IMG/VR virus record: IMGVR_UViG_3300045925_000048
Coordinates: 1 to 47,822 of that record
DNA from: a virus
Direction: 5' to 3' (one strand)
Length of the DNA stretch: 47,822 bases
In this document: piece by piece, positions 4,852 to 47,822 of the stretch
Position numbering within the stretch: position 1 is the first letter of the stretch
How the letters are laid out: each line of letters opens with the position of its first letter
Position numbers and translations under genes: made by a program
The notes under the pieces: model-generated
Databases searched by the model: none
Told to the model about the DNA's origin: nothing
What the model saw: only the letters and a program-made list of their open reading frames with translations

Positions 4852-4852
4852 C

Positions 4853-11262: not shown

Positions 11263-11609
11263 TGCCGCCAGCCAGGCCCGAGCCGCTGAGCGCCTGGAAG
11301 ATCGTCGGCATCCTGCTGTCGATCGTCGGGGCGGTGTCGCTGCTGGGCTGGAACTACATCAGCAGCTCGCTCGCCGCGAACGAGAATCAGATCCATGCCG
11401 TCCAGGCCCAGGTCGCCGCCGAGAAGAACAAGACCGACGTCACCGTCACCGAGATCAAGGGCAAGCTCGACGCCGTCGAAAAAAACCTTGAGCGCGTCGA
11501 GAAGGGCCAGGAAAAAATTAAGGAGCAGCTCGAGAAGAACGCCAGCCAACAGGAGAAGCTGAACAGCAACCTCGAGCAGCTCCTGCGCCAGCGGGGCCGG
11601 ATACCGTGA
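11262..11609 (+). CDS. Membrane-anchored coiled-coil protein, possible inner-membrane spanin
   Basis: This 115-residue protein has one N-terminal membrane segment (about residues 14-32) followed by a long charged coiled coil rich in K, E and Q. This is the topology of an inner-membrane spanin (Rz-like), with the helix reaching into the periplasm. A lipoprotein that could be the outer partner is encoded at 12986, but separated by several genes, which is unusual for Rz/Rz1. The gene overlaps both neighbours (TGATG at its start, GTGATG at its end). A role as a membrane accessory of lysis is inference. Confidence 0.5.
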   Translation: MPPARPEPLSAWKIVGILLSIVGAVSLLGWNYISSSLAANENQIHAVQAQVAAEKNKTDVTVTEIKGKLDAVEKNLERVEKGQEKIKEQLEKNASQQEKLNSNLEQLLRQRGRIP

Positions 11610-11890
11610 TGTGGCCCGTCGTCCTCGAAACGGTCCTCTTCATCTCGTCGGTCGCGGCGCTGGCGGCGGCCGTCGTGCGCTGCACCCAGCGCCGCGGCTG
11701 GTCGCGCACGGCGTGGGTCCTCCTCGCGATCGTCTGGAGCTGGGTCGTCCTGGGCGAGCTCGTGCTGAACCTCATGGGCTCGAACGAACTCATCATTCGC
11801 TGGATGCGTGCGGTCCCCGCCCGGATCCTGACGGCGGTCGCGTTCTGGCTCCTCGTCTGGCACGGCCGCAAGGAGCGGAGGCGACGCTGA
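11609..11890 (+). CDS. Three-helix membrane protein, holin-like candidate
   Basis: This 93-residue protein has three hydrophobic stretches (about residues 4-22, 33-54 and 68-85) and a basic tail ending HGRKERRRR. Small size, multiple membrane helices, a positively charged C-terminus and a place directly before the lysozyme gene fit a holin. The ATG at 11609 is preferred over the GTG three bases earlier. The stop overlaps the lysozyme ATG. No specific holin family was recognised, and another candidate lies at 12687. Confidence 0.5.
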   Translation: MWPVVLETVLFISSVAALAAAVVRCTQRRGWSRTAWVLLAIVWSWVVLGELVLNLMGSNELIIRWMRAVPARILTAVAFWLLVWHGRKERRRR

Positions 11891-12330
11891 TGGATGACGT
11901 CTCCCGCCTCCGGCTGCGAGGTCAGATCGCCCGCGATGAGGGCGGCTATCAGCGATTCGCCTATCCGGACTCCGAAGGGTACTGGACGATCGGCTTCGGG
12001 CGCTGCATCGACAAGCGCAAGGGCAAGGGGATCAGCCTCGAGGAAGCCGAGCGGATGCTGGATGCAGACATTCGAGACTTCACGGCCGATGTGCTGGTCG
12101 CGATCCCGTGGGCGATGACGCTCGGTGACGCCCGGCTGGGTGCCTTGGTCAACATCGCCTTCAACGTGGGGGTCCAGGGGCTGCTCGGATTCAAGAAGGC
12201 GCTGGCCGCAATGGAGCGGGGCCAATACCAGGAGGCGCGCACACATTTTCTGGATTCCAAGTGGGCGCGCCAAGTGGGACCCCGAGCGCCACGGCTCGCC
12301 GACCAGATCGCCGACGGGGAATGGAGATGA
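11890..12330 (+). CDS. Endolysin, T4-type lysozyme (GH24)
   Basis: This 146-residue protein is a muramidase that cleaves peptidoglycan at the end of infection. The GH24 catalytic layout is clear: RDEGGYQRFAYPD gives Glu17 and Asp27, and EGYWTIGFGR gives Thr33, close to the E-D-T spacing of T4 lysozyme. The later ALVNIAFNVG segment matches the helical lobe. There is no signal peptide or SAR helix, so export should need a holin. The ATG overlaps the stop of the membrane protein upstream. Family assignment is firm. Confidence 0.92.
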   Translation: MDDVSRLRLRGQIARDEGGYQRFAYPDSEGYWTIGFGRCIDKRKGKGISLEEAERMLDADIRDFTADVLVAIPWAMTLGDARLGALVNIAFNVGVQGLLGFKKALAAMERGQYQEARTHFLDSKWARQVGPRAPRLADQIADGEWR

Positions 12331-12566
12331 CCGACCACCTGCCCGACACGCCGGTCATGGCGCGGTGGTACTGCCCAGGTTGCGAACCTGACTCGGATCC
12401 GACCCGCGAGATCCTCGAGCCGCGGTGGTGCAACGATCACGAGCCGAGCCGCGAAGGCCGCGACGACGACGCGGTCTCCGGCATCCATCTGTCAGGGACC
12501 GCCGAAGCTGGCGGTGATGACAACCGGCGCCTCTGCGCCTTGATCCATGGCACGCGGCGAGCTTGA
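12327..12566 (+). CDS. Small Cys/His-containing protein
   Basis: This 79-residue protein begins in an ATGA overlap with the lysozyme stop. A WYCPGCEPD motif and a later PRWCNDH could bind one zinc ion (CxxC plus C and H). The rest is polar and low in hydrophobic residues. It lies inside the lysis block but has no membrane segment. Comparable short zinc-ribbon-like proteins are frequent in phages of high-GC proteobacteria. Function is unknown. Confidence 0.6.
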   Translation: MTDHLPDTPVMARWYCPGCEPDSDPTREILEPRWCNDHEPSREGRDDDAVSGIHLSGTAEAGGDDNRRLCALIHGTRRA

Positions 12567-12567
12567 G

Positions 12568-12690
12568 ATGCCGCGCTGGGCCTGGACCGTCGTACTCGTG
12601 ATGCTGGCCGCGCTCGTCTGTATCGCGATCGTGCCGCGCATTGTGCCGGTCCTGATCGAACACCTACCGATTGCAGGGGAGGACCCATGA
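12568..12690 (+). CDS. Single-pass membrane micropeptide
   Basis: This 40-residue peptide is nearly all one membrane helix (WTVVLVMLAALVCIAIV) with a short acidic C-terminus. It starts one base after the preceding gene and ends in an ATGA overlap with the next. An in-frame ATG at 12547 would add seven residues. Its place among lysis genes suggests a lysis accessory or pinholin-like role, but this is inference from topology. Confidence 0.5.
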   Translation: MPRWAWTVVLVMLAALVCIAIVPRIVPVLIEHLPIAGEDP

Positions 12691-12989
12691 ACGGACAACT
12701 GCTGTTCCTGCTCTATCTGGCCGCTGGGGCGATCGGCACGGGCTGCCGCGTCGCGCTGAGCCCGACGATTGAGTTTGGCGCCAACAAGCGGACCATCGTC
12801 GAGGTCGTCGTCGGCGGCGTGTCCGGAGTTCTGCTCGGGCACTTCATCCCGGTGCTCGCGGGGCTCATCGGCATGCCGGCCGAGACCGTCACGAGCGTGC
12901 CGGCCGTCGTCAAGGCGTGTCTGGTCTTTACCGTGAGCTACGCCGGATCGTTCACGATCGGCGAGCTGCTGGCTCGGAGGACTCCATGA
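12687..12989 (+). CDS. Multi-pass membrane protein, holin-like candidate
   Basis: This 100-residue protein has three hydrophobic segments (about residues 3-21, 37-60 and 73-92) and a charged C-terminus (ARRTP). It sits downstream of the lysozyme and upstream of a lipoprotein, and begins in an ATGA overlap. Small three-helix membrane proteins at this position are often holins or antiholins. Its start pattern (short polar N-terminus, then a long hydrophobic stretch with GAIGTGCR) resembles CrcB-like or holin-type small membrane proteins. The family is not certain. Confidence 0.5.
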   Translation: MNGQLLFLLYLAAGAIGTGCRVALSPTIEFGANKRTIVEVVVGGVSGVLLGHFIPVLAGLIGMPAETVTSVPAVVKACLVFTVSYAGSFTIGELLARRTP

Positions 12990-13348
12990 AGCGCGTTCTC
13001 GCTCTGTGCGTCGTCGCCGCGATCCTCGCCGGATGCGCGCTGGTCCAAGGGTCGCAGCCCGATCCCATCACGCTCACCACCGACACGATCGCGATGGTGG
13101 GCGAGCAGGCCGTCATCACCAATGCGAATTACGTCACCCTGTGCAATTCCAAGACGCTGCCGGTCTCGCAATGCAACGCCTGGCGAAAATTCTTTGAAGA
13201 CTTCCGGGCGACCTATCCGGCGCTGGCCCGCTCCTATCAGACCTCGCTCCAGGCTGGCAAGAAGGCCGATGCGCAGGCCGCCGCGACGGCGATCCAGGCC
13301 CTGTCCAATCAACTGCTCCTCTACGTGCTCATCAAGGAGAAACGGTAA
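12986..13348 (+). CDS. Predicted outer-membrane lipoprotein
   Basis: This 120-residue protein has a classic lipoprotein signal with the lipobox LAGC; the lipid-bearing residue would be Cys17. The mature part is mostly helical with two further cysteines (VTLCN and VSQCN), which could form a disulfide. Position at the end of the lysis block makes it a candidate outer-membrane spanin, but it is longer than usual Rz1 proteins and lacks a proline-rich stretch. The ATG follows TCGGAGG at 12975-12980. Confidence 0.65.
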   Translation: MKRVLALCVVAAILAGCALVQGSQPDPITLTTDTIAMVGEQAVITNANYVTLCNSKTLPVSQCNAWRKFFEDFRATYPALARSYQTSLQAGKKADAQAAATAIQALSNQLLLYVLIKEKR

Positions 13349-13542
13349 TGGACCCGGTAGCCATCGCCGCCATCGTGACCGGCGCGACGCAGATCATCGC
13401 GCTCGCCATTGACGCCTATCAAAAGAGCGGGGCGACCGCCGAGCAAGTGGCCGAGATGCGGGAGATCGCGATGGCCCGACTCAACGCGGCCATCGCCGCG
13501 GTGGAAGCCGCAGAACCGCCGGCACCAGGCAGCGGGGCGTAG
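13348..13542 (+). CDS. Small alanine-rich helical protein
   Basis: This 64-residue protein starts at an ATG overlapping the lipoprotein stop (TAATG). The first half is a moderately hydrophobic helix (VAIAAIVTGATQIIALAI), and the second half is an amphipathic helix ending in a proline/glycine tail. It is the last plus-strand gene of the late transcription unit and is followed by a hairpin. It may be a membrane-associated lysis accessory, but no family is recognised. Confidence 0.5.
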   Translation: MDPVAIAAIVTGATQIIALAIDAYQKSGATAEQVAEMREIAMARLNAAIAAVEAAEPPAPGSGA

Positions 13543-13544
13543 TG

Positions 13545-13561
13545 CCCCCGCCGGGCGGGGG
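13545..13561. terminator. GC-rich hairpin at the convergent end of the late unit
   Basis: A perfect palindrome CCCCCGCC-G-GGCGGGGG lies three bases after the last late gene and before the 3' end of a minus-strand operon. No T-run follows on either strand, so it is a terminator-like or transcript-stabilising hairpin rather than a canonical intrinsic terminator. Confidence 0.45.
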
Positions 13562-13573
13562 AGTTAGGCCCCC

Positions 13574-13705
13574 CTATGCACCCTTCGGGCGTCCGCCCTT
13601 CTTCCCATTCTCGCGAGCGGCGCGCCGCTTCGCTGGCGTCGAGATCCCCTTCGTGGCAGCACCGCCTTTCCTCCCGAGAGCCACGGCGTGCGGGTTCTTC
13701 GCCAT
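13574..13705 (-). CDS. Small basic KGG-type protein
   Basis: This 43-residue protein is rich in lysine, arginine, glycine and alanine. It carries the repeated GRKGGAAT and GKKGGRPKG motifs typical of small KGG-type proteins in bacteria and phages, which are thought to bind nucleic acid. The ATG overlaps the stop of the next gene upstream on the same strand (TGATG), so both form one minus-strand operon. Codon choice is GC-ending throughout, which supports real coding. The exact role is unknown. Confidence 0.65.
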   Translation of the reverse strand: MAKNPHAVALGRKGGAATKGISTPAKRRAARENGKKGGRPKGA

Positions 13706-13899
13706 CACTGCTCTGGGAAGTGGGCGCATGGCCCAAGGTCCACCGTCACTTGGTCCGTGTCGGGTTCAATCAGGCGGCGATAGTGCGTCGCGCCCGCGCG
13801 GCATCGCGCCTTCTGGATGCGGACCCAGAACTCTTCGATCTGGCTGTTCGGCATGCTGAGCAGTCGGTCACGCAGGGCCTTGGCTCCTGTCCGGTTCAT
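13705..13899 (-). CDS. Small hypothetical protein of the minus-strand operon
   Basis: This 64-residue protein has a helical first half (KALRDRLLSMPNSQIEEFWV) and an acidic C-terminus (EPDTDQVTVDLGPC). The ATG at 13899 is chosen because GGAGG (from ATGGAGGGC) lies just upstream on the minus strand; an ATG at 13914 would add five residues but overlaps that site. A TTGACA box lies 45-50 bases upstream. No family is recognised. It is co-transcribed with the KGG-type gene. Confidence 0.55.
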   Translation of the reverse strand: MNRTGAKALRDRLLSMPNSQIEEFWVRIQKARCRAGATHYRRLIEPDTDQVTVDLGPCAHFPEQ

Positions 13900-13920
13900 C
13901 GTCGTGCCCTCCATGCCGAG

Positions 13921-13970
13921 AGCATCCCATATCGCTGTGGGTTTGTCAACGGCGATCTTACCAGCATAAA
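13921..13970. promoter_or_regulatory. Candidate divergent promoter pair between small minus gene and nuclease
   Basis: On the plus strand TTGTCA (13943-13948) is 16 bases before CATAAA (13965-13970), a fair sigma70-type match. On the minus strand a perfect TTGACA occupies 13944-13949, with only a weak -10 (GATGCT) 17 bases downstream. The two -35 boxes share the heptamer TTGTCAA, the same half-site found in the repressor/Cro operator at 15542-15561, so this region may also be repressor-controlled. Confidence 0.45.
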
Positions 13971-13985
13971 CACAGGGGATTCGGC

Positions 13986-14345
13986 GTGACCTGCCATCTC
14001 GCCGCCTGGGTCCTCTGCTGGCTGGTCTCGGCCCAGATGGTCCGCGTCATTGACGGCGACACCTTCCTCGCGACGGCCTCGATCTGGCCGGGCCTCGAGG
14101 CCGCGCTGACCGTGCGCGTCCTGGGCGTGGACACGCCGGAGCTGAGAGGCGAAACCCGCGCGGCGGGGGAGAAGGCCCGCGACTTCACGAAGGCCTGGCT
14201 GGACGACCAGGGCGACGTGCTCCTCGCGATCGGCTGTGGCCGACCCTCACAGGACAGCTTCGGTCGCTACCTCGCTGTCGTCACACGGGACGGCAAGAGC
14301 CTCGCCGACGATCTGATCGCGGCGGGGCTCGGGGTCAAGCGCTAG
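13986..14345 (+). CDS. Staphylococcal-nuclease-like (SNase) protein, possibly exported
   Basis: This 119-residue protein is a small Ca2+-dependent nuclease fold. The key residues are present: the DGDTF loop (Asp23, Asp25), RVLGVDTPE giving Arg44, Asp49 and Glu52, and DSFGRY giving Arg94, in the spacing of S. aureus nuclease Arg35, Asp40, Glu43 and Arg87. A short hydrophobic N-terminus (LAAWVLCWLVSA) could act as a signal peptide. The GTG start follows AGGGGA. It is the only plus-strand gene inside the minus-strand lysogeny block. Its stop overlaps the converging stop of the PDZ lipoprotein (CTAG shared). Likely an accessory (moron-type) gene. Confidence 0.8.
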   Translation: MTCHLAAWVLCWLVSAQMVRVIDGDTFLATASIWPGLEAALTVRVLGVDTPELRGETRAAGEKARDFTKAWLDDQGDVLLAIGCGRPSQDSFGRYLAVVTRDGKSLADDLIAAGLGVKR

Positions 14346-14791
14346 CGCTGGCGCAACGTAGGCACGAACTCGATCGGCGAGCCCTCGCGCACGACGACTA
14401 CGGTGACCCGGTCTCCCGCCTTCCGCTGCCGGAGCACGTTCGCCAGATCGCGGTAGGTCTTCACCGAAAAGCCCTCGACGCTCTGGAGCAGATCGCCGCG
14501 CTTGATGCCTGCCTGCGCGGCCGGCGAGTCCGGCTCGGTGCTCGTGATCTGGGGCGGGTCTGATCTATCGAACAGGACCCCGAGCACCACGTCCGGGAGT
14601 TCAAAGTAGCCGACCTTGCGGTAATTGCTGACGCACTGGTCGTGGGTGGTGGCCGCCATGGGCGCGCCCACGTACCCCCAGCCTGTCGCTGAGCAGAGGA
14701 CCGCTTGGCCCTGGTTGTTCGCCAGCCACGTCGAGGGCGTCGCGCAGCCGGCCAGGCCGAGGGCGATCGCGAGGAGCATCGAGCGCTTCAT
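14342..14791 (-). CDS. PDZ-domain lipoprotein
   Basis: This 149-residue protein starts at an ATG preceded by AAGGAG seven bases upstream; an upstream in-frame ATG at 14812 has no such site. The signal ends in LAGC, so Cys16 should be lipidated and the protein anchored in the host envelope. Residues ~75-140 form a PDZ domain with the SPAAQAGIKRGDLLQSVEG core and a VTVVVVREG closing strand, as in HtrA-type periplasmic proteins, but no protease domain is present. It lies third in the apparent repressor operon, so it is probably made in the lysogen and changes the envelope or blocks superinfection. That role is inference. Confidence 0.82.
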   Translation of the reverse strand: MKRSMLLAIALGLAGCATPSTWLANNQGQAVLCSATGWGYVGAPMAATTHDQCVSNYRKVGYFELPDVVLGVLFDRSDPPQITSTEPDSPAAQAGIKRGDLLQSVEGFSVKTYRDLANVLRQRKAGDRVTVVVVREGSPIEFVPTLRQR

Positions 14792-14829
14792 TGCAGGCTC
14801 CTTTGTCTTCATACATGATTAGTCCTCGT

Positions 14830-31376: not shown

Positions 31377-32662
31377 GCGTCCCAACTTTCCAAGAGATCA
31401 AGCAAACGCTCGAGGACCTGGGGAAGGCGAACCACGAGTTCCGCGAGGCCAACGACCGCTCGATTGCCGAGATCAAGAAGGGCAACGAGACGCTGGCGCG
31501 CGAGTTCAGCGAGAAGGCCGACAAGTTCAACAAGGAGGTCGGCACGCTCGCGGACGCCGCGAAGAAGCTCAGCCTGCAGCTCGACGTCCAGAACGAGCGC
31601 ATCGAGGAGCTGGAGTCCCGCGCGAAGTCGCCCGGCAAGACGATCGAGCAGAAGCGCCGCGACGACCACAAGGGCGCCTTCAACGCTTGGATGCGTCAGC
31701 CGTCGCCGATGACCGAGTCGAACCTGAAGCAGGCCGAGAACAAGCTGATCGAAATGAAGGACGTGACGATCGGTACTGGCGCGCAAGGGGGGTTCGCCGT
31801 TCCTGAGGAGATCTCCCGGGAGATCGGCCGGCTCGAGCGCCTCAAGTCGCCGGTGCGCCGCCTCGTGAAGGTCGTCCAGGCCGGCACCAGCGACTACAAG
31901 GAACTGGTCAGCAAGCGCGGCACGACGGCCGGATGGGTCGGTGAGACCGGCACCAGGTCGGCGACGCTGACCTCGCAGCTCCGCGAGCGCGCCATGACGC
32001 ATGGGGAGCTGTATGCCTACCCTCAAGCGTCCGAGTGGAGCCTTGATGACATCTTCTTCAATGTCGAGGCGTGGCTCGCCGAAGAGGTCGCCGACCGCTT
32101 CGCCGAGGAAGAGGGAATTGCGGTCATATCAGGCAACGGAACGTCGAAACCAACGGGCATGATAAATACAGCCCCGGTTACGACGGCAGACTTTGCGAGC
32201 CCCGAGCGTGCGGCCGCGGCCTACCAGTCAGTCACGACGGACCTCACGCCGGGCGGCGTCAGCATCCTGCCCGACGATCTGATCACGCTCGCGGCGACGT
32301 TGCACTCGGTCTATCGGGGCAGCTCGACGTGGGTGATGAACTCACTGACCGCCGCCACCATCCGGAAGCTGAAGGAGACCACGAATCAGTACCTGTGGCA
32401 GCCGGGTCTGCAGATGGGAACGCCGGACATCCTGCTCGGTCGACCCGTCGAGATCTGGGAGAACATGCCAGCAATCGGTGCTAACAACTTTCCTGTCGCC
32501 CTGGGCGACTGGAGGCGAGCGTACTATCTCGCCGACCGAGTCGGTCTCCGCATCACCCGTGACAACGTCACCAACGTAGGTTTCGTCCGTTTCTACGTCC
32601 GCCGCAGAGAAGGCGGAATCGTGCTCGATAACCACGCAGCCAAGTTCCTGCAGACGCTCTGA
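31373..32662 (+). CDS. Major capsid protein, HK97 fold with N-terminal scaffold domain
   Basis: This 429-residue protein carries an N-terminal ~105-residue coiled-coil delta domain ([20 protein letters not shown] and following) that serves as an internal scaffold and is removed by the protease. The capsid domain follows, with [13 protein letters not shown] near 140-150 and the typical P-domain and E-loop run ([17 protein letters not shown]). The ATG follows AGGAGG and overlaps the protease stop. A large hairpin and an HNH gene come next. Assignment is firm. Confidence 0.93.
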
Positions 32663-33438
32663 TGCATAGCGGGCCTGCTGCGGTGGTCACTGGAAATGCG
32701 GCGATGCCGCAGCAGGCCCGCGTCTGTTCAATCGAGGGCTGCGACCGGCATGCATCTATGCGCGGGTGGTGCAACAAGCACTACAAAAGATGGCGGAAGC
32801 ACGGAGATCCGCTCAAGACGCTGCTCAACCGCGAGAAGAATCAAATCTGTTCTATCAAGGACTGTGGGAAGCGCGTCAAGGGTGTTGGTTTGTGTGCGAA
32901 CCACTACCAGCAAAGGCGCCGCCCGAAGTTACCCCGCAACGCGTGCTCTGTGTCTGGATGCAGCAACATGGCGAACCCCTACCGAACTATTTGCGCAACC
33001 CATGACTGGCGCAAAAGAAAGTACGGCCATCCGGAGGCGGTGCTTCTGAAGACGCAGCGCAGTGAACGTGTTCGGGTGGCCGGGATCATCACCCACGAAG
33101 GCTATCGCAGAGTTTATAGGCCGGGGCATTCAGAAGCGCGCCAGCGCTCCGGTGGTAATACGGGGCCTCGGGTGTGGGCTCTTGAGCATCGCGCTGTGAT
33201 GGCAGATCACCTCGGTCGAGCACTCCTGCCGAACGAGAACGTCCACCACAGAAACGGCGACCGCACCGACAACCGCATCGAGAACCTCGAGCTCTGGGTA
33301 AAGTCGCAGCCGTCCGGCCAGCGCGTCGAGGATCTCGTCGCGTGGGCGCATCAGATCCTCCGGCTGTACGGGCGCTTCAACCCGAAGCGCGGCGCACCCG
33401 AGAACAAGGTCGTCGGGATGCTGGAGCGGCTCGGATGA
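32662..33438 (+). CDS. HNH homing-type endonuclease with three zinc-finger repeats
   Basis: This 258-residue protein has three N-terminal repeats of a C-x4-C...C-x3-H layout ([19 protein letters not shown], then CSIKDCGKR...CANH, then CSVSGC...CATH). A linker carries [11 protein letters not shown], and an HNH core contains [17 protein letters not shown], '[20 protein letters not shown]'. The first ATG overlaps the capsid stop; ATG 32704 would start behind the hairpin. It is a likely mobile, free-standing homing nuclease inserted behind the capsid gene and has a paralogue at 46746. It is followed by a sugar/methyl-transfer cassette. Confidence 0.85.
32669..32721. other. Perfect 15-bp stem hairpin behind the capsid gene
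   Basis: GCGGGCCTGCTGCGG (32669-32683) is perfectly complementary to 32707-32721, enclosing a 23-base loop. It starts seven bases after the capsid stop and spans the start region of the HNH gene. It could end or stabilise capsid mRNA, or hide the HNH start. No T-run follows. Confidence 0.75.
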
Positions 33439-38507: not shown

Positions 38508-40703
38508 TTGGGGCAGGTCCTTATCGAAATCGCGGCAAATTCTGCCGCCTTCCGCTCCGAGCTCGAGAAGGCCCGCGGGCAGTTCTCCTCGTTCACGGGC
38601 GCGATCAAGTCGGGGCTCGCGACGATCGGCGTCGCCGCCTCGGTCGCCGGTCTGACGGCGCTGGTCAAGTCCGCGATCGACGCCGGCGCGGCGACTCGCG
38701 AAATGGCGACCCGGATGGGTATCGGGACGCGCGAGCTGCAGGAGCTGCAGCATGCCGCGCGCGACACCGGCACCGACCTCGAGGCGCTCGAGACCGGCGT
38801 CCGCAACCTGAGCCGCCGGATCGACGAGGCAGCGAACGACTCGGCCGAGGCCCGCGAGGCCTTCGCGCGCCTGGGCGTGAGCTGGCGCGACAGCACCGGG
38901 AACATTCGCGACGTCCTCGACGTGCTCGACGAAGTCGCCGACAAGCTGAACCTCCGCGGGCAAGCCGAGCGCGCGGCGCTCGCGGTGCAGCTCTTCGGCC
39001 GCAGTGGCGCCGGGATGCTCACGCTCTTGAGCGAGGGCTCCAAGGGGATGTCGGAGCTGCGCGCTGAAGCGCACAAGCTCGGACTGGTGCTGACCGACGA
39101 GGCGCTGAAGGCGCTCGACGAGACACAGGACGCCTTCGACAAGGCCACGCACAGCATCAAGGTCGAGTTCATGAAGGCGGTCGTCGAGGCGAAGCCGGCG
39201 CTCTTGGATCTGGCGACCGTGCTGCAGTCGATCGGCTCGCTGATGTCGTGGGTCACCGGGAAGGCGAAGCAGCTCAGCGACGTGCTCGGCCTCGGTGTCC
39301 TCCGCGACGAGCTGAAGGAGTGGCTCGGTCGCGGTGGCTCCGGATCCAACCTGGTGCTCCCTCCTGGGATGTTTCCGTCGGCCTTCGTGCCGGAGGAGGA
39401 CCGTCAGCGCCCCAGGCAGGTCACAACAGCCCAACTACTCCAGCGTGCCCAGCTCGCGGCTGCGGCCGCGCAGAACCGCTTCGCGATCGGCAGCGCGGCC
39501 AGCCTCGCCGCGCCGGGCTCCGAGGTCGACCTGCTGCAGCGGCAGATCACGCTCTCGCAGCAGAAGCTGCGGGTCGACCTCGATGGGCTCGCTGCGCAGC
39601 GCCAGGCGGAGATCACCGACAAGGGGCGTCTTGAGGTCACCCAGAAGGCCGAGAAGGTCGTCGCGGACTTCATCGTCGAGCAGGTCCGACTCTACAAGGA
39701 CCTGACGGACGCGATGAACACCGCCGCGCAGGTCGAGGCCAGCCTCTTCGACTTCTCGGGCGAAGCCGTCGCCGCGCAGCGTGACCTGGATGTCGTCGCC
39801 GACGCCGCAGGCCGCTATGCCGAGGCGCTGAAGGAAGCCAAGCGCCAGGGGCTCGGGGTCGGCGAGAGCGAGGTCCTCTTCGACGTGCCGCTGATGACCG
39901 AAGCCGACGCGACCATGCAGCGGCTGGGGAGTCGCCTCAACGATGTCGCAAACCTCAGCCGGGTCATGGGCTCCAGTTTCGACTCGATCGGCGGCCGGAT
40001 TGCCGCGATCGACGAAGCGCTGCAGGACCTCGCTCAGCAGGGGATCGCCGAGACCGATGCGCGAGTGCAGTCGCTCCGTGGCGAGCTCGACCGACTGATC
40101 GCGACGCGGGACGCGCTGTCGGACATCTTCGGCGGGCTGCGTAGCGCCGTCTCGGGCACGGTGCAGGGGATCGTGCAGGGCACGCTCACGCTGAAGGAAG
40201 CGTTCGCCAACATGGGCCGCTCGATCGCGGCCTCGATCCTCGAGAACGTCATCAATCGCGGGCTCGCGGTGGCGCAGAAGGCGCTCGAGGAGTTCATCGA
40301 CAGCCTGATCCGCTCGGGTCTCATCCAGGCCGGCGTCAAGGCGGGCGTCGGCCTCCTAGCCGGGATAGCTGGCGCCGGGCAGATCTCCGTCGGTCAGACC
40401 GGGACGCCGGCGACGCTCCATGCCTTCGCTGAGGGCGGAGTCGTGACCCGGCCGACCCTTGGGCTCTTCGGAGAATCCGGGCCCGAGGCGGTCATCCCGC
40501 TCGACCGATTCACGGGCGGCGGAACCGTCGTGAACATCTACAACCAGGCCTCCGGCACGGAGGTCGAGCACCGCGAGACGACCGACGGTCGGCGTCAGAT
40601 CCACGACATCGTGATTCGCGAAGTGCGCCGGAGCATCGCCAGCGGCGAGATGGACTCGGTCCTCTCGCCCTACGGTCTGGGCCGCCAGCCGGTGCGGCGC
40701 TGA
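38508..40703 (+). CDS. Tape measure protein
   Basis: This ~731-residue protein sets tail length. The start is TTG here because no ATG/GTG is available, but a GGGAGG site at 38485-38490 is spaced correctly only for an ATC at 38499, which would give IALLGQVLIEI at the N-terminus. An ATG at 38478 in the same frame is cut by a TGA at 38493. The protein has heptad coiled coils, a membrane-like helix near residues 33-55 (GLATIGVAASVAGLTALV), and the tape-measure C-terminal 'TRPTLGLFGESGPEAVIPL' motif. Function is firm; the start is uncertain. Confidence 0.85.
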   Translation: MGQVLIEIAANSAAFRSELEKARGQFSSFTGAIKSGLATIGVAASVAGLTALVKSAIDAGAATREMATRMGIGTRELQELQHAARDTGTDLEALETGVRNLSRRIDEAANDSAEAREAFARLGVSWRDSTGNIRDVLDVLDEVADKLNLRGQAERAALAVQLFGRSGAGMLTLLSEGSKGMSELRAEAHKLGLVLTDEALKALDETQDAFDKATHSIKVEFMKAVVEAKPALLDLATVLQSIGSLMSWVTGKAKQLSDVLGLGVLRDELKEWLGRGGSGSNLVLPPGMFPSAFVPEEDRQRPRQVTTAQLLQRAQLAAAAAQNRFAIGSAASLAAPGSEVDLLQRQITLSQQKLRVDLDGLAAQRQAEITDKGRLEVTQKAEKVVADFIVEQVRLYKDLTDAMNTAAQVEASLFDFSGEAVAAQRDLDVVADAAGRYAEALKEAKRQGLGVGESEVLFDVPLMTEADATMQRLGSRLNDVANLSRVMGSSFDSIGGRIAAIDEALQDLAQQGIAETDARVQSLRGELDRLIATRDALSDIFGGLRSAVSGTVQGIVQGTLTLKEAFANMGRSIAASILENVINRGLAVAQKALEEFIDSLIRSGLIQAGVKAGVGLLAGIAGAGQISVGQTGTPATLHAFAEGGVVTRPTLGLFGESGPEAVIPLDRFTGGGTVVNIYNQASGTEVEHRETTDGRRQIHDIVIREVRRSIASGEMDSVLSPYGLGRQPVRR

Positions 40704-41062
40704 TGGCAACCTGGCCCGGGACCCTGCCGCCGCGCCTCCTGCTCGAGGGCTACCAGGAGCGGCTGCCGCGCAACAAGGTCCGCACGGAGATGGACGCCGG
40801 GCCCGCGAAGCAGCGGCGCCGCTACACCGCCGCCGTGCGCCCGATCGCCGGCGCGCAGATCCTCACCACGGCCCAGGTCGCCTCGCTCAAGACGTTCCAT
40901 GACTCGACGCTGCAGGGCGGACAGGACGCCTTTGACTGGACGGACCCGATCCCGAACTCCGGCCTGTTCAGTTTCCGCTTCGTCTCCGAGCCGCACATCG
41001 ACCGGGCCTTGGGCGGGGGCCTCTACCACGTGACCTACGAGCTGGAGATCTTGCCCTCGTGA
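40703..41062 (+). CDS. Minor tail protein (M-like position)
   Basis: This 119-residue protein begins in an ATG overlap with the tape measure stop. The pattern LLLEGYQERLPRNKVRTEMD, 'AGPAKQRRRYTAAVRPI', HDSTLQGGQDAFDWTDP and the final beta strands resemble small tail proteins that follow the tape measure in siphoviruses (lambda M position). It should help cap the tape measure at the tail tip. Family name is inferred from order and pattern. Confidence 0.7.
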   Translation: MATWPGTLPPRLLLEGYQERLPRNKVRTEMDAGPAKQRRRYTAAVRPIAGAQILTTAQVASLKTFHDSTLQGGQDAFDWTDPIPNSGLFSFRFVSEPHIDRALGGGLYHVTYELEILPS

Positions 41063-41073
41063 TGGGAGGCGCC

Positions 41074-42186
41074 ATGAGATACGTCGCGGTCCTCGTCGTC
41101 GCGGTGCTGGCGTGCGCGTCAGCGGCCTCGGCGGACATCTCGGTGAACTCGGCGGGCGTGACGGTCGGCTCGCCGACGTTCCGGTCGTACCTGCCGAACG
41201 GCACCGCGCACCTGCAGGGCATGGTGATCTGCGACAAGACGACGACGGATCGCTGCATCACCGTCGACGCCAACGGGGCGATCTCCGCGACTTTGCCAGC
41301 GGGGATGCTCGGGACGGCCGGGAGCGCCGCGGCCAGCGTGCTGACGATCCAGGGCATCGCGTCGATGACGCCGGTCACGACGACGATCAGCGGCTCGCTG
41401 CCGACGGGCAGCAACGTCATCGGCCACGTGATCTGCGACTCGGGCTGCTCGTCGACGCCGTCGCCGTCCTTCGGCGCGGCCTTCCCCTCGACCGGCACGC
41501 CGATCGGTGTCACGGACGGCACGAACCTGGTCGCGCTGCGCGGGCGCACGGGGCTCATCGGGTCAAGCGACGTCGGCCTGGTCGTGCGGCCCTTCATGCC
41601 GTCGGACGGCACGAACACGATGCCGGTCGGCGACAGCTCGGCACGCTCGATCCACGTGACGGTCGACAACGGCTCGGTGGCGGTCACGGAGAACGGCAAC
41701 GTCACGCTCGGCACCGCGGCCGTGGCCGAGACGGTGTCAATCCAGTACGGCCAGGCGATCACGACGCCGTCGACGATGACCCTCGGCACGAACGGCAGTG
41801 GCATGCGCGCGACGTTCGCGCTGGCCGGCCAGCAGATCATGCAGCTCAACGCGCCGATTGGGGACTGGACGGGCGGCAAAGCGAACGCCACCGGCACCTC
41901 GGACACCTCGCTCGTCGCGGCGCTCGGCTCGGGCGTGAAGTTCTGCATGACGGACTGGTTCGCGACGAACGACTCGGCGACCGACTCGTCATTTCGATTC
42001 CGCGATGACGTCGGCGGCTCCCCGGCCGATCTGACCGAGCGAATCATGGTCCCGAACAAGGGAGCGAATCAGAAATCGCTTACCACGCCTATCTGCTCGT
42101 CGGCGAACAAGGCGCTCGGATTCCAGGCCGACACGGGCGTGACGACGATGCGCGTGACCGTGCGCGGTTACAAGACGAAGGAGTAA
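41074..42186 (+). CDS. Exported beta-rich protein with signal peptide
   Basis: This 370-residue protein starts at an ATG after GGGAGG. The first ~21 residues (MRYVAVLVVAVLACASAASA) are a Sec signal peptide ending in an AxA cleavage site, unexpected for a tail gene. The mature part is a long repetitive beta-rich stretch rich in T, S, G and N, with several cysteines (ICDKTTTDRC, CDSGCSS), like a fibrous or solenoid domain. It is the first of a row of exported proteins placed between minor tail genes. It could be a surface-exposed protein or an appendage. Function unknown. Confidence 0.7.
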   Translation: MRYVAVLVVAVLACASAASADISVNSAGVTVGSPTFRSYLPNGTAHLQGMVICDKTTTDRCITVDANGAISATLPAGMLGTAGSAAASVLTIQGIASMTPVTTTISGSLPTGSNVIGHVICDSGCSSTPSPSFGAAFPSTGTPIGVTDGTNLVALRGRTGLIGSSDVGLVVRPFMPSDGTNTMPVGDSSARSIHVTVDNGSVAVTENGNVTLGTAAVAETVSIQYGQAITTPSTMTLGTNGSGMRATFALAGQQIMQLNAPIGDWTGGKANATGTSDTSLVAALGSGVKFCMTDWFATNDSATDSSFRFRDDVGGSPADLTERIMVPNKGANQKSLTTPICSSANKALGFQADTGVTTMRVTVRGYKTKE

Positions 42187-42192
42187 GGCGCC

Positions 42193-42735
42193 GTGATCTG
42201 CACGCACGACTACTACAGGCACACAGTGGGTCTCCGCTGCGGATGGCGTCGATGGCTCGACCCGGCCCACATGCCGGCGTGGTGGTACGTGCTGAGCGCG
42301 ATCTTGCCCTGGCTTGTGGCCTTGGCTCTGCTGCTGTCCGCTCCGGCCTGGGCGCAGTTCCAGTCCGTCGACGTCATCGTCAAGGCCAACCGCAACAACG
42401 GGACCTTCAACTTCCCCAACGTCACCGTCCCGACTGGCGTCCGCGGACTCCGGGCCGTGATGGACATCTCCGAATCCGTCGATCCGCTGCCGGCGATCAG
42501 CGTGACGCTGGAAGGTTCTCTCGATGGGGGTAGTACGTGGATGCCGGCTGGAGCCTTCACGCGGTCGGCCGGGCCGAAGGGTCTCGACAAGTCGGGCAAT
42601 CTCCAGACGACCACGGCGGCGACGTTCACGGGCGGGACTTTCTGGAGCGACACGACGAACGCCAGCCGTCGCCTGCGAGGCAACGCGACGATCAGCGGGG
42701 CGATGCGCTTCGGCGTCACGGTGCAGCCCCTGTGA
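42193..42735 (+). CDS. Exported or membrane-anchored small jelly-roll-like protein
   Basis: This 180-residue protein starts at a GTG. After about 27 residues with His, Cys and Trp, a hydrophobic stretch (WYVLSAILPWLVALALLLSA) ends in PAWAQ, which could be a signal peptide or an anchor. The rest is a compact beta sandwich with a sugar-binding-like pattern (ISVTLEGSLDGGSTWMPAG). It is coupled to the next exported gene by a GTGA overlap. Likely part of the same exported unit. Confidence 0.65.
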   Translation: MICTHDYYRHTVGLRCGWRRWLDPAHMPAWWYVLSAILPWLVALALLLSAPAWAQFQSVDVIVKANRNNGTFNFPNVTVPTGVRGLRAVMDISESVDPLPAISVTLEGSLDGGSTWMPAGAFTRSAGPKGLDKSGNLQTTTAATFTGGTFWSDTTNASRRLRGNATISGAMRFGVTVQPL

Positions 42736-43481
42736 GACGACTGATTGTCGCCCTGACCCTGGTCCTGCTCGCGTCATCGCCAGCCCAGGCAGCGATCGCG
42801 CACGTGCAGACAGTCTCATGCTCGGCCCATGGCGCGACGTCCTGCACCACGGGCGCGGTCACGACGACGAATGGCAGCCTGTTCATCGTGAGTACGTCGT
42901 TCTGCTGCGTTTCGGGGGATTTCACGTCGATCACGGACAGCAAGTCCAACACCTACGTCAACGCGGTGCCGGCGTTCAATCAGGACTCCGCGTGGGCGCG
43001 CCAAGACTACATTGCCAGCGGGACCGGCGGGGCTTCGCACACCTTCACGGTGAATGGCACGGTCAACCTGTTCGCGACGATCAGCGTGCATGAGGTCTCT
43101 GGGGCCGCCGCATCGCCGCTCGATAAGATCGCATCAAATTCTATCGTCGTGGACACGAGCCACACGTCGACGGCGACGACGACCACGAGCCAAGCCAACG
43201 AGTTGTTGGTCGGGGCCGGCGGCTCCACCGACACCACGACCTATACAACGGATACGGGCGCGGGCTGGACCGAGCGGACCAACGTCGCCACGGACGCGAA
43301 TACGGAGGGGGGTGTGTTTGGGACGCGGATCGTGGCGGCGACCGGCACCTACGCCTACACATATACAACGGGCTCAAGCGCGCGATCGGTGTCGCTCATC
43401 TCGACGTGGAAAGAAGCCGCGGCGGCCGGAGTCCGCCAGCGCTGCATCGGCTGCGGGGCGGATAGCAAGGTGATCGAATGA
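42732..43481 (+). CDS. Exported beta-rich protein with signal peptide
   Basis: This 249-residue protein begins at a GTG overlapping the preceding stop. Its signal peptide (MRRLIVALTLVLLASSPAQA) is followed by a beta-rich body with threonine and serine repeats (TATTTTSQANELLVGAGGS). Cysteines near residues ~30-60 and CIGCG at the C-terminus may form disulfides. It resembles secreted adhesion or sialidase-like beta domains, but no active-site motif is seen. It is the third of the exported row and couples to the fourth. Confidence 0.65.
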   Translation: MRRLIVALTLVLLASSPAQAAIAHVQTVSCSAHGATSCTTGAVTTTNGSLFIVSTSFCCVSGDFTSITDSKSNTYVNAVPAFNQDSAWARQDYIASGTGGASHTFTVNGTVNLFATISVHEVSGAAASPLDKIASNSIVVDTSHTSTATTTTSQANELLVGAGGSTDTTTYTTDTGAGWTERTNVATDANTEGGVFGTRIVAATGTYAYTYTTGSSARSVSLISTWKEAAAAGVRQRCIGCGADSKVIE

Positions 43482-45607
43482 TCCGCTGGTGGCTGGTCCT
43501 GCTGCTGCTCCTGGTGGGTGGCGGCGTCACGTCGCCGCGCGCGGCGACGACGTTTGTCGCCTCACCCACCGGCAACGATGCCGCCGGAACGCCCTGCACC
43601 GACGCGCAGCCGTGCTCGGTGCGGCGCGGGCTCCTCACGATGAGCTGTAGCAACAACGACGCGCTGGAACTCCTCGACGGCGTCTACCGCGGCGACAACT
43701 ACATGCTCAATCTTGCTTCGCACGTGCCGAACAAGAGCGGCACGGGGGCCGGGGCGCGCTGCACGGTGCGGGCGCGTAACGACGGCGGCGTGTTCATTGA
43801 CGGCCAATTCGCGCGGATACCCTTTTGGACTGACCGGAACAACTGGTGGCTCTTCGAGGGATTTGACGCCGGAAACTCCAACGATGGCGTGGCGACGGTC
43901 TTCCAAACCAACAACACGCTCTTGCGCCGCATCTGCTTCTCGAACAACATCAACACGAACCCGGGCACGAATGTGCATGTCTTCCAAGTCGGTGGCGCAG
44001 GCGACGCCACGGGCACCGCGAACAACACGTTCGAGGATCTGTGCATCTTTGGCGTCGGAAGAAATACGATTATCGACTACATCAATGCCGGCGCGAATAC
44101 CTTTCGCCGCGTCTGGGCCCGGCATGAGGGCTGGTTCTCGACGGCCACCAACGGCGGGAGCCCGGTGCTGCAACTTGGCTATGACTCGCAGCACAACGCC
44201 ACCCTGGAAAACGTCATCACCGTCCTCGCCACGCGCGAGCAGATGGAGACAGATACCGCGTGCATCGGCGAGTGTAATAGCTCGATCACCATCCGCAATG
44301 ACGCACCCGGTGGGGCAGCGGGCTACAAGTTCTTCGGCTGGATTGCCTACGGGCAGGACAACTCGCGCATTCCGCTCAATGGGCAGTATATGTCGCTTCG
44401 AGGCCAAGGCGCCGCGAAGGTCGAGACGACGGATGTCTTTCTCGATGCGCGAGCGGCCCCAGCAAATGTCCGCGGGCTGGTGACAGACTCAGCGACGCAA
44501 ACCGTAACCCGCGCCACGATCATCAAGCTGTCGTCGACGCCCGCCTCCACACAAAACAATGGCGTCTGGACCAATGTCAACGAATGCAATACGACCGCCG
44601 GGACCGTCGGCCCCTTATTCGGTTCGTGCCCCAACTTTTACACGGGTGACACCCCAGGGACCGGCGCGCGTAACTGTTTGGAGTACCTCAACGGCACGCT
44701 GACCGGCACGAAACTCTGGCCATGGCGGATGGACGACCGGATCAAGGCCGCGCTGGCGCGCGCCAACGCGGCAGGCACTGGCGGCGGCGCGCTGCAAGGT
44801 GGAGCGGGTGCGGGCTATGCACCAAATACTGTCACGAGCGAGATCGCCGCACGCTATGGCCCGATCCCGACGGCATGCAACCGCGCCGGCTCGTTCACGC
44901 CCAACTTCCCCGTAGCGACCGACTTTCCCTCGACGCCGGTGCTGGACGACTTCAATAGGGCGAATGGTGCGCTGGGCGCGAACTGGGTCAACACCTTTAC
45001 GCCGAACACGCCGTTCACGATCGTCAGTAACCAGGCCGCGGCCGACGGGGGCGGTAACAACGCGCGCATGCAATGGGTCGGCGGGCTGTTCTCCGGGACA
45101 CATGAGGTTTGGGCGCTCTGGCCGGCACCGCCGAACTGCTGCACGGCGCTTTCCTTCGCCGGAGAGAACGGGACCGAGGGGAGCCAGTGGCGCCTGGGGC
45201 TCGACATATCAGGCGGTAACACGCACGCGATCATCCGCAAGATCGACAGCGGGGGCAACCTCGCGGCGCTGCTCCTCGACGTGGACCTCGGGACCGATGT
45301 GTCGGCGACTCCGAATCAGGGCTTCGGGATCCGGGTCAGCTCGACGCAGACGATCTCGATCTACTGGAAGTGGACGGACGGTAACTGGTATCGGGTCGGC
45401 TCCGTGATCGACACGAGCCTGCCGATGGCCAATACGGCGATTGGGTTTGCAGGCGTTGGGGCCTTTATCCGTGTCGACGACTTCGGCGGTGGCACGTGCT
45501 GCGGCGGCGCGATCAGCCCGTCAAGCGTCGGGCGGCTCGGGACGCAGTTCCCGAAGCCGCGCCGGCGGCGCTTCGCAACGAGGCTTCCACTCAAGAGGGC
45601 GGCGTGA
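43478..45607 (+). CDS. Exported right-handed beta-helix protein with C-terminal LamG-like domain
   Basis: This 709-residue protein starts in an ATGA overlap. It has a signal peptide (MIRWWLVLLLLLVGGG and on to AA near residue 23). The next ~400 residues have the repeated short strand pattern of right-handed beta helices or pectin-lyase-like folds (NWWLFEGFDAGNSNDGVAT, NNTFEDLCIFGVG, GSPVLQLGYDSQHNATLENV). The last ~230 residues look like a LamG/concanavalin domain (LDDFNRANGALGANW). It may bind or cut polysaccharide, but catalytic residues cannot be assigned. It is the largest exported protein of this cassette. Confidence 0.7.
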   Translation: MIRWWLVLLLLLVGGGVTSPRAATTFVASPTGNDAAGTPCTDAQPCSVRRGLLTMSCSNNDALELLDGVYRGDNYMLNLASHVPNKSGTGAGARCTVRARNDGGVFIDGQFARIPFWTDRNNWWLFEGFDAGNSNDGVATVFQTNNTLLRRICFSNNINTNPGTNVHVFQVGGAGDATGTANNTFEDLCIFGVGRNTIIDYINAGANTFRRVWARHEGWFSTATNGGSPVLQLGYDSQHNATLENVITVLATREQMETDTACIGECNSSITIRNDAPGGAAGYKFFGWIAYGQDNSRIPLNGQYMSLRGQGAAKVETTDVFLDARAAPANVRGLVTDSATQTVTRATIIKLSSTPASTQNNGVWTNVNECNTTAGTVGPLFGSCPNFYTGDTPGTGARNCLEYLNGTLTGTKLWPWRMDDRIKAALARANAAGTGGGALQGGAGAGYAPNTVTSEIAARYGPIPTACNRAGSFTPNFPVATDFPSTPVLDDFNRANGALGANWVNTFTPNTPFTIVSNQAAADGGGNNARMQWVGGLFSGTHEVWALWPAPPNCCTALSFAGENGTEGSQWRLGLDISGGNTHAIIRKIDSGGNLAALLLDVDLGTDVSATPNQGFGIRVSSTQTISIYWKWTDGNWYRVGSVIDTSLPMANTAIGFAGVGAFIRVDDFGGGTCCGGAISPSSVGRLGTQFPKPRRRRFATRLPLKRAA

Positions 45608-45945
45608 GGGCGCTGGTCGCCGGCCTCGGGCTCCTGGCGCTCGCGTCTCAGGCTACCGGCGCCGATGCGCCGAAGCCCCTCGCCGAGCTCGACGCGCTTC
45701 GCATCGGCAAGCTATACGCCGAGCGCCAGATCTTCGAGCAGGCGCTGCTGAAGCTCCAGGCCCAGCAGGAGAACCTCAGACTGCAGGCGCAGAGCACGCG
45801 CCGCGACTACGAGGTCAAGAACGCCGAGCTGCAGGCGGCGATCGCGGCGGCCGCTACCGCGTCAGGCGTGACGGCCGAGGACCTCAAGGCCGGATGGCAG
45901 CCGGCGCCGGAGCAGCGCCAGTGGATCAAGGCGCCGACGCCATGA
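45604..45945 (+). CDS. Exported coiled-coil protein with signal peptide
   Basis: This 113-residue protein starts at a GTG overlapping the previous stop. A signal peptide (MRALVAGLGLLALASQATGA) is followed by a coiled coil (QALLKLQAQQENLRLQAQST and following), and then a short acidic tail. Its topology is that of a small periplasmic or particle-linked helical protein. It ends in an ATGA overlap with a further small gene. Function is unknown, but it completes the run of signal-peptide genes. Confidence 0.62.
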   Translation: MRALVAGLGLLALASQATGADAPKPLAELDALRIGKLYAERQIFEQALLKLQAQQENLRLQAQSTRRDYEVKNAELQAAIAAAATASGVTAEDLKAGWQPAPEQRQWIKAPTP

Positions 45946-46151
45946 CGCCGATCCCGCTCCTGCCGGGAGAGACAGACGGCGCGCCGGAGGTCGAGCTCCC
46001 ACCGATCACCGTCATCGTCTCGAAGAAGGCGACCGTGACCACGAACCGTAAGGACAGCGTGCCGAGCGGCGCCGTCCAGATTTCAGGAGGCCGCGTGACG
46101 CTCACCGTCAATCCGGAGCAGCCGCTCGTCGTCTTGAGGGAGTCGTCCTGA
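45942..46151 (+). CDS. Small hypothetical protein
   Basis: This 69-residue protein starts in an ATGA overlap. It is short, with beta-like strands (ITVIVSKKATVTTNRKD, AVQISGGRVTLTV) and no signal peptide. Small Ig-like or tail-linked proteins of this size are common before tail-tip genes. The following tail gene starts directly after its stop. Confidence 0.5.
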   Translation: MTPIPLLPGETDGAPEVELPPITVIVSKKATVTTNRKDSVPSGAVQISGGRVTLTVNPEQPLVVLRESS

Positions 46152-46673
46152 TTGGCGCCGCTTCCGCTACTTCCGGGCGGGCCGGGTGGCGGCTCGACCT
46201 TCGGCCGCAACCTGTCGGCCGCCGCGAAGCAGGCGATCTTTGCCCAAGAGACGGGCGAGGTCTTCCTTCACCTGCTCGAGATCTCGCACGACTCGATCGA
46301 GACGCTGCGCTTCGTCGACAACACGGAGCAGATCGTCAGCAACGGCGACACCTATCTGCCCTACGCCTTCCGGATCGCGCTGCCGGGGGAGTTCGACGAC
46401 CAGCTCCCGACGGTCCATCTCGAGATCGACAACGTCGACCGGGTGATCCTCGAGGGCATTCGGGCGCTGCCGTCCTCGCCGTCGATCAGGATGGCCGTCA
46501 TCCTCGCCAGCAGCCCGGACACGATCGAGGCGGGCCCGTTCACCTTCACGTTGAAGGCCGTGGATTACGACGCCATGTCGATCAGCGGGACGCTGGCCTT
46601 CGAGGACACGCTCAATGAGCCGTATCCCTTCGTTAGGTTTTCGCCGGGGCTGTTTCCCGGCATTTTCCCCTAA
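46152..46673 (+). CDS. Minor tail protein, DUF1833-like (L-like position)
   Basis: This 173-residue protein has TTG start directly after the preceding stop, with GAGGGA about 10 bases upstream. The pattern 'AKQAIFAQETGEVFLHLLEI', 'ETLRFVDNTEQIVSNGDTYL' and 'PYAFRIALPG' is that of the DUF1833 family found beside NlpC/P60 and J genes. The C-terminus is RFSPGLFPGIFP. A near-duplicate ending, DQFPGIYP followed by TGA, lies after the inserted HNH gene (47388-47411), so the original 3' end seems to have been displaced. Confidence 0.8.
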   Translation: MAPLPLLPGGPGGGSTFGRNLSAAAKQAIFAQETGEVFLHLLEISHDSIETLRFVDNTEQIVSNGDTYLPYAFRIALPGEFDDQLPTVHLEIDNVDRVILEGIRALPSSPSIRMAVILASSPDTIEAGPFTFTLKAVDYDAMSISGTLAFEDTLNEPYPFVRFSPGLFPGIFP

Positions 46674-46745: not shown

Positions 46746-47387
46746 ATGCGATGCCGAGTACGTAGATGCGGTAAAGAGCGGATCGCGAAGGGCCTCTGTC
46801 CGATGCATTACAAACGAATGCGAGAGCAGGGCGCAACTGGTCCGGCCGGTCCCATCTCTCGGAAACTGCCGCGGGGGCGTTGCGCGTTTGGGTTATGTAC
46901 CGCGCGAGCAGCGCACGCTGGACTCTGTAATCCTCATTATAAAAAGGCGTGGCGACGGGGCGAGCGCGGTCATATCGAAGCGCGGGGCCAATGCTCCGTT
47001 CCCGAGTGCAATGCTGCGCACGAAGCTAGGGGCTATTGTCGCAACCATTACCACCGCTGGCGGGCGCACGGTTCGCCGTTTGCGGAAATGCGTCGCTATC
47101 GCCGTCGGCCCGATAACCGCTTCGTCGACAGGCACGGATATGTTCAGGTTCGGGTCGACGATGGGCGCCCGGCCAGGAAGAACGGATACGCCCAGGAGCA
47201 TCGCATCGTTATGTCGGCGGCACTGGGGCGACCACTCGAAAAGTTCGAGAGCGTCCACCACAGAAACGGAAACCGCGCCGACAACCGGATCGAGAACCTG
47301 GAACTATGGGCCACGCTCCATCCGTCGGGTCAGCGTGTCGAAGACCTCGTCGTCTTCGCAAAGGAGATTCTGGCTAGGTACGGCTGA
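46746..47387 (+). CDS. HNH homing-type endonuclease with zinc-finger repeats, second copy
   Basis: This 213-residue protein is a paralogue of the one at 32662. Three repeats carry C-x4-C and C-x3-H pairs (CRVRRCGKERIAKGLCPMH, CAFGLC...CNPH, CSVPEC...CRNH). The HNH core is EHRIVMSAALGRPLEKFESV, followed by [18 protein letters not shown]. The ATG follows GAGGAGGGG. It sits between DUF1833-like and NlpC/P60 genes, with the 3'-end motif of the former repeated downstream. It is likely a mobile element that targets this tail gene. Confidence 0.87.
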   Translation: MRCRVRRCGKERIAKGLCPMHYKRMREQGATGPAGPISRKLPRGRCAFGLCTARAAHAGLCNPHYKKAWRRGERGHIEARGQCSVPECNAAHEARGYCRNHYHRWRAHGSPFAEMRRYRRRPDNRFVDRHGYVQVRVDDGRPARKNGYAQEHRIVMSAALGRPLEKFESVHHRNGNRADNRIENLELWATLHPSGQRVEDLVVFAKEILARYG

Positions 47388-47408: not shown

Positions 47409-47822
47409 GTGAGAACGCTCCCAGCTTGGGCGTCACGTTACGTCGGGCTGCCGTTCGCGGACGGCGGGCGGACTCTGGACGGGCTTGATTGCTTCGGACT
47501 CGTTCGAATCATCATGCTCGAGCAGTACGGTGTCGATCTGCCGAGCTACTCGGGCGACTACGTGAGTTCGACCGAGCGCGAAGAAGTCTCCGCCCTCATC
47601 GCGGCCAACACGCCGGCGCTCGGCTGGACGCCAGCGGCGAAGCCCTACCGAGCCGGGGACGCCGTCGTGCTCCGCGTCGAGAATCGCCCGTGGCACGTCG
47701 GGCTCATGCTCAACGACGACGACTTCATTCACGTCATGCCGGGCCTCGACGCGGCGATCGAATCGATCACGGGGCCGCGGTGGGGTCGGCGTGTCGTCGG
47801 CGTGTATCGGCATCCGGAGGTC
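47409..47822 (+). CDS. NlpC/P60-family tail peptidase, N-terminal part (continues at window start)
   Basis: This gene begins at GTG 47409 and continues across the circular junction to base 136; the total is 140 residues. It has the papain-like NlpC/P60 layout: catalytic Cys28 in GLDCFGLVRI, and His96 in RPWHVGLML. It should cut the peptide stem of peptidoglycan at the tail tip during DNA entry, as lambda K. Its neighbours are the DUF1833-like gene and tail tip J. The start TGA overlap with the displaced tail-gene end (CCGTGAG) supports the GTG. Confidence 0.92.
   Translation, partial: MRTLPAWASRYVGLPFADGGRTLDGLDCFGLVRIIMLEQYGVDLPSYSGDYVSSTEREEVSALIAANTPALGWTPAAKPYRAGDAVVLRVENRPWHVGLMLNDDDFIHVMPGLDAAIESITGPRWGRRVVGVYRHPEV
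47696..47822. repeat. Terminal direct repeat, right copy
   Basis: These 127 bases are identical to 1-127, inside the NlpC/P60 gene. The overlap closes the contig to a 47,695-bp circle. Confidence 0.95.

Follow-up and report, generated by a model that had tools for sequence, protein, structure and literature searches.

A transferable cassette of predicted Sec-exported, cysteine-paired proteins in the tail operon of a siphovirus

Tailed phages are considered to assemble their virions entirely within the reducing cytoplasm, which raises the question of why a tail operon should carry a run of genes whose products begin with export signals. We examined such a run in IMG/VR virus record IMGVR_UViG_3300045925_000048, the full 47,822 nucleotides of which we call the window. 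Here, five consecutive genes on the + strand, A to E (41074..45945), lie between an M-like minor tail gene and a DUF1833 tail gene and together encode about 1,620 amino acids (aa). We consider it somewhat probable that A–E form a transferable late-operon cassette of Sec-exported, disulfide-bonded proteins of fibre, adhesin or depolymerase type that virions take up at lysis.

Export signals on five consecutive genes

The five open reading frames (ORFs) of the original prediction were all present at their given positions (370, 180, 249, 709 and 113 aa), and the coupling by overlap that it described takes the form of 4-base ATGA/GTGA overlaps between C, D and E and the gene preceding each. Gene A (41074..42186) opens with the predicted signal peptide MRYVAVLVVAVLACASAASA (41074..41133), cut before D (...LACASAASA/DIS), and ends in a small beta-domain. 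Gene B (42193..42735), coding for the 'EGSLDGGSTWMP' protein, can be read from a GTG at 42193 that has the better Shine-Dalgarno sequence (AAGGAG) and places 26 extra residues ahead of the signal; the signal itself is best read from the ATG at 42271, giving a predicted product of 154 aa with a signal peptide at 42271..42354 (...LLLSAPAWA/Q, followed as QFQ). For gene C (42732..43481) the predicted signal peptide is MRRLIVALTLVLLASSPAQA (42732..42791), cut before A (...SSPAQA/AIA), and for gene D (43478..45607) it is MIRWWLVLLLLLVGGGVTSPRAA (43478..43546), cut before T at a less certain site (...TSPRAA/TTF). Gene E (45604..45945), short and helical or coiled-coil-like, begins with MRALVAGLGLLALASQATGA (45604..45663), cut before D or one residue earlier (...LASQATG/ADA). 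E is the last cassette gene in all relatives.

Signal peptides were scored with a rule of our own rather than with SignalP. All five starts are positively charged or short and lead into a hydrophobic core, with a good AxA-type site in four of the five. A, B (from 42271), C and E scored 6.8–7.9 against a median of 2.6 in 273 control genes, three of which reached 6.5; D has a clear core (KD 3.4) and a weaker cleavage site, its best automatic score being 5.0. The claim of a Sec-type signal on each of the five was thus borne out strongly for four genes, and for D in its core more than in its site. The window has 26 other structural genes, none of which satisfied the rule, and its remaining hydrophobic N-termini fall mostly in the lysis region (11262–14812), as expected there. 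Homologues of A–E in three other phages (L026, L047 and L048) all keep a hydrophobic signal-like start, the N-termini being the least conserved part of proteins that share 75–82% (A), 46–50% (B), 51–66% (C), 44–53% (D) and 59–72% (E) identity with those of the window. Because no other structural gene passes and the hydrophobic N-termini are kept in three other phages, the signals are not a product of chance. The products of A–E are very probably translocated over the inner membrane by Sec, with cleavage of the signal peptide. We also considered A as a lipoprotein and rejected this, since the cysteine of the VLAC within its signal is absent from the A of L026 and the site is not kept; no lipobox ([LVI][ASTVI][GAS]C) was found at the cleavage sites of B–E.

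Cysteine parity in exported and signal-less proteins

Exported proteins of Gram-negative bacteria favour even cysteine numbers (PMC7678975). We applied one rule to all genes encoding 100 aa or more in eight phages, placing in the exported class those with a signal score of at least 6, no lipobox and no later membrane segment, and counted mature cysteines only. Exported proteins had an even number in 33 cases, an odd number in one and none in six, while the other genes had an even number in 63, an odd number in 87 and none in 86. The excess among cysteine-bearing genes (33/34 versus 63/150) gives a Fisher p of 7e-10; many of the 33 are homologous to one another, and counting by family leaves 17 of 18 even. 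The sole odd case, at 33435 of the window, seems to have been passed by the rule in error. An earlier and cruder rule that took the first AxA-like site as the cleavage site had given 28 even and 4 odd, and was replaced by the scored rule, applied alike to all genes. Within the cassette, A, C and D have 6, 6 and 16 mature cysteines and B and E have none, which amounts to 28 in 1,496 mature residues (1.9%), compared with 21 in 6,661 residues (0.3%) for the window's morphogenesis proteins (p 1e-9). The six of A, at 53, 61, 121, 125, 291 and 341, are conserved. These counts argue strongly that A, C and D fold with paired disulfides in an oxidising compartment, and the block is best described as a predicted disulfide-protein cassette.

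The same domains occur with and without export. In three families, signal and matching cysteines go together, and signal-less homologues in ordinary phages lack both. T1 and T2, two genes after the J gene of Bradyrhizobium phage ppBdUSDA122-1, carry signals and cysteines, and their homologues after J in the Rhizobium phages RHph_TM16 and RHph_Y3_1 have neither a signal nor cysteines at the matching sites. An exported protein encoded at 14449 of contig 3300045968_000057 has C162 and C191 where two signal-less homologues have G and F. In the C family, a C30/C38 pair is common to the signal-bearing members of the window, L026, L047, L048, L060 and L062 and is missing from the signal-less members L063, L064 and L066; L065, which has a signal, bears a different set of four mature cysteines. 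Export to an oxidising compartment should leave just this pattern, with signal and cysteines present together or absent together. It also speaks to the idea that the hydrophobic N-termini are membrane or virion-interaction segments of proteins that stay in the cytoplasm, with incidental cysteines. The weak predicted cleavage site of D and of some homologues (B and D of L026) would fit that idea, which we nonetheless strongly disfavour and regard as very improbable given correctly spaced AxA sites in the majority of the proteins, the parity signature and the joint loss in signal-less homologues.

Insertion and transfer of the block

The left border of the block is the M-like gene (40703..41062, +; phrog_384, 3e-19) and the right border is the DUF1833 gene (46152..46673, +; PF08875, 5.8e-21). 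More than 30 related viral loci, and ppBdUSDA122-1 as well, have the two abutting or overlapping; the block separates them only in the window (gap 5,093) and in contig 3300049733_000130 (gap 5,389), and a single unrelated insert of about 3 kb stands between them in L045. In L027, whose flanking genes are 67% and 62% identical to the window's, the block is missing. Since the two genes are contiguous in so many relatives, the block represents a 5.1-kb insertion in this lineage.

The original prediction proposed looking for the same block in related phages, and we found A–E as an ordered cassette in L026, L047 and L048. A further exported gene, F, stands between D and E in L026 and L048. L047 and L048 have a different backbone ahead of the cassette, and the next gene after it encodes a podovirus-like SU10-type portal (PF23899 in L048). 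In all four phages, the gene after E starts with M-x-P-L/I-P-L/I-L/I-P-G or close to it, whether this gene is DUF1833, the portal or, in the window, a small ORF of 69 aa (45942..46151, +; MTPIPLLPGETDG...). L027 does not have the motif residues at its DUF1833 start. The motif after E in four phages and its absence from L027 make it seem that the first codons of the downstream neighbour are part of the transferred unit, as judged from the four junctions. Two successive window genes, the small ORF and DUF1833 itself (first codons MAPLPLLPGG), start with M-x-P-L/I-P-L-L-P-G, which could be a scar left at the junction or a tag that functions at the N-terminus.

The C family spans siphovirus-, podovirus- and PRD1-like contigs. 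The last of these, L062, encodes a PRD1-type P3 capsid protein (PF09018, 1.6e-50), of a tailless type, and carries a C-family member together with several exported proteins with even cysteine counts. A tail is thus not required. We also noted that positions 6450–18427 of L062 encode, besides the C-family protein, four or more exported proteins with even cysteine counts (10, 8, 2 and 2); the ORF at 6432–7487 was tried as an A-like gene and the relation found no support.

Elsewhere, relatives are scarce. No match to A, C or D was obtained by tblastn against 50,697 phage records, and a viral scan with D as a single sequence returned no relative. A scan of 84,980 species genomes yielded one distant A-like gene, on contig L055 of an Oleiharenicola metagenome-assembled genome, and nothing further was found in 289 genomes of the same phylum. 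This A-like gene has a signal and only one cysteine, placing it outside the disulfide signature. L055 looks to hold phage head and tail genes, and has two signal-peptide genes (1951–2520 and 9629–12049), one of them between head-like genes, without the paired-cysteine signature.

These searches bear on whether A–E are lysogenic-conversion (moron) genes that were acquired from the secretome of a host and that the prophage expresses to alter the host surface. Mobility between unrelated phages would suit such an origin, as would the cysteine-paired character of the proteins, which is typical of host secretomes (PMC7678975). However, there is that single relative among the species genomes, A–E share one strand and are translationally coupled, no promoter- or terminator-like site was detected above chance around the block, and its guanine-plus-cytosine content is near that of the rest of the phage. 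We judge a moron origin improbable.

Fold, site of action and known systems

Our best reading of the proteins themselves is that A–E are Sec-exported, disulfide-bonded fibre and adhesin proteins, with D a lyase-like beta-helix. The C-terminal 105 residues of A were modelled as a beta-domain (predicted local distance difference test, pLDDT, 62–82) that matches phage proteins of about 110 aa (TMt 0.6–0.7), one of them named a virion protein. The model of D starts as a right-handed beta-helix of good confidence and ends as a jelly-roll, with a middle below pLDDT 50; its best solved-structure matches are the pectate lyase Pel9A, the CBA120 tailspike and PL6 lyases, all weak and made with this poor-middle model. 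E is helical by the look of its sequence, no relative of B or C has a solved structure, and a search of Protein Data Bank sequences with profiles of A, D, E and C gave nothing significant. The earlier description of the proteins as beta-solenoid or LamG-like therefore suits D and does not suit A, B, C or E. Structure prediction giving ordinary tail folds in proteins devoid of an export signal, which would have refuted the original prediction, was not what we saw; the predicted fibre-like folds come with export signals.

Exported sister genes with recognisable domains point the same way. T2 matches a collar domain and tail-fibre PHROGs, two exported proteins of phage G005 match collagen-like tail-fibre PHROGs, and ordinary phage proteins, tail fibres among them, contain homologous domains and no signals. 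Another phage, that of contig 3300047160_003551, has a run of exported genes (4097–5905 and 9506–14035) in which two exported proteins are collagen-like tail fibres.

Several points weigh against a fibre role on the virion. A–E have no significant Pfam or PHROG match, including to any fibre or spike domain, which leaves sister genes, folds and position as the grounds for calling them fibres; we recognised no attachment domain in any of them; the structure models are of low confidence outside short regions; and the presence of the C family in a tailless phage would also suit a protein that is secreted and acts free of the virion. The chief competing account takes up this last point: A–E would be exported and never join the particle, acting instead on the surface of the infected cell or in the matrix before lysis, by receptor masking, by exclusion or as a free depolymerase or adhesin that aids spread. 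Clean Sec signals, the disulfide signature, the PRD1-like occurrence and the resemblance of D to secreted polysaccharide lyases all speak for it. Yet the cassette occupies a late tail or portal operon position in both backbones, the sister exported genes directly after J are recognisable tail fibres, the same domains lack signals in ordinary phage proteins, and a Pfam scan of A–E revealed no outer-membrane anchor, sortase or autotransporter domain. We regard this account as a live but doubtful possibility. Of the interpretation offered in the original prediction, the export signals, the coherent, coupled tail-operon block and its recurrence in other phages stand, and masking, exclusion and cell-to-cell spread are weakened by the tail-fibre identity of the sister genes and the signal-less homologues.

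The original prediction suggested that the proteins may coat the particle after lysis, and this is the mechanism that we favour. In our version of it, A–E would be made late alongside the tail proteins, exported by Sec across the inner membrane and relieved of their signal peptides. A, C and D would then be oxidised to paired disulfides and stored in the periplasm, with D serving as a beta-helix protein of polysaccharide-binding or lyase-like type and E perhaps as a helical partner or chaperone. We propose that, once a holin opens the inner membrane, cytoplasmic virions would meet the waiting fibres and capture them before or during rupture of the outer membrane, so that released particles would bear disulfide-hardened adhesins and a polysaccharide-degrading spike. 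The lysozyme in the window's lysis region is signal-less (PF00959), consistent with holin-type lysis. Capture at this step would fit that lysozyme, the fibre-type domains and the tail or portal operon position; the route would be independent of virion type and so fits the spread over sipho-, podo- and tailless phages. A broader claim, that tailed and tailless phages share a two-compartment assembly (Sec export, periplasmic disulfides, storage and addition at holin lysis) for which A–E are a mobile, architecture-independent kit, we hold to be evenly poised.

The window is a lambda/HK97-type siphovirus with 69 genes (gene caller trained on its own obvious genes), among them terminase, portal, protease, capsid, tape measure, M-like, DUF1833, C40 peptidase and J genes; the nearest matches of its J lie in phages that include those of Bradyrhizobium, Rhizobium and Rhodobacter. 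Its ends share an exact 127-base direct repeat (1–127 and 47696–47822), so the record probably represents an entire, circularly permuted genome of some 47.7 kb, the join falling at the C40 and J genes. Two HNH-like cysteine-rich ORFs (32662–33438 and 46746–47387; 38% identical) break up the head and the tail operon in the manner of homing endonucleases. Next to the lysis genes is an SNase-like nuclease (13986–14345; PF00565, 3e-6) with a hydrophobic N-terminus that is possibly exported. Two lipoprotein-like genes were also seen, one at 12986–13348 (+) that could be an outer-membrane spanin and one with a PDZ-like look at 14342–14812 (-), on the strand opposite to most other genes.

Phage-encoded exported proteins are already known for lysis and surface change. 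Our analysis points to maturation of surface fibres beyond the cytoplasm in some phages, contrary to textbook assembly, which, if true, would mean a second maturation compartment, dependence on host Sec and Dsb, and fibres swappable between phages of different architecture. The signature of signal peptide plus even cysteines would find such fibres in many unannotated phages. We found no account of Sec-exported, disulfide-bonded fibres, for tailed or tailless phages, in the open-licence literature, which leaves most subscription journals uncovered, and papers on DsbA and phage infection deal with host receptors, not phage proteins.

Fibres and tailspikes of Caudoviricetes that are assembled in the cytoplasm (CBA120 TSP2, the RHph_TM16 collar protein) resemble the exported proteins in domains, operon position and beta-helix or collar architecture, but the RHph_TM16 and RHph_Y3_1 homologues have neither the signal peptide nor the paired cysteines at the matching sites. 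Among solved structures, D comes nearest to the secreted PL9 (Pel9A, 1ru4) and PL6 lyases, weakly and from a low-confidence model. PblA and PblB of streptococcal phage SM1 are tail proteins with a second role at the cell surface; they differ from A–E in having no signal peptides and in reaching the surface by lysis. The exported outer-membrane protein Lom of lambda, encoded in the tail-fibre region (PMC12309495), is likewise a tail-region product with a signal peptide, but Lom is a single outer-membrane beta-barrel expressed in lysogens, whereas A–E are a multi-gene, soluble, cysteine-rich set. Bradyrhizobium diazoefficiens USDA 122 sheds siphophage particles in culture (PMC10127595, the main text of which contains neither 'signal peptide' nor 'tail fiber'). 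The tail operon of prophage ppBdUSDA122-1 (OP596612) is of the lambda-like siphophage kind, as in the window, and includes tape measure, M-like, DUF1833, C40 and J genes; its T1 and T2, annotated 'hypothetical protein' and 'tail fiber protein', share with A–E a signal and an even, high cysteine count (6 and 18). T1 and T2 differ in lying after J instead of between M-like and DUF1833, in not being homologous to A–E and in the recognisable collar domain of T2.

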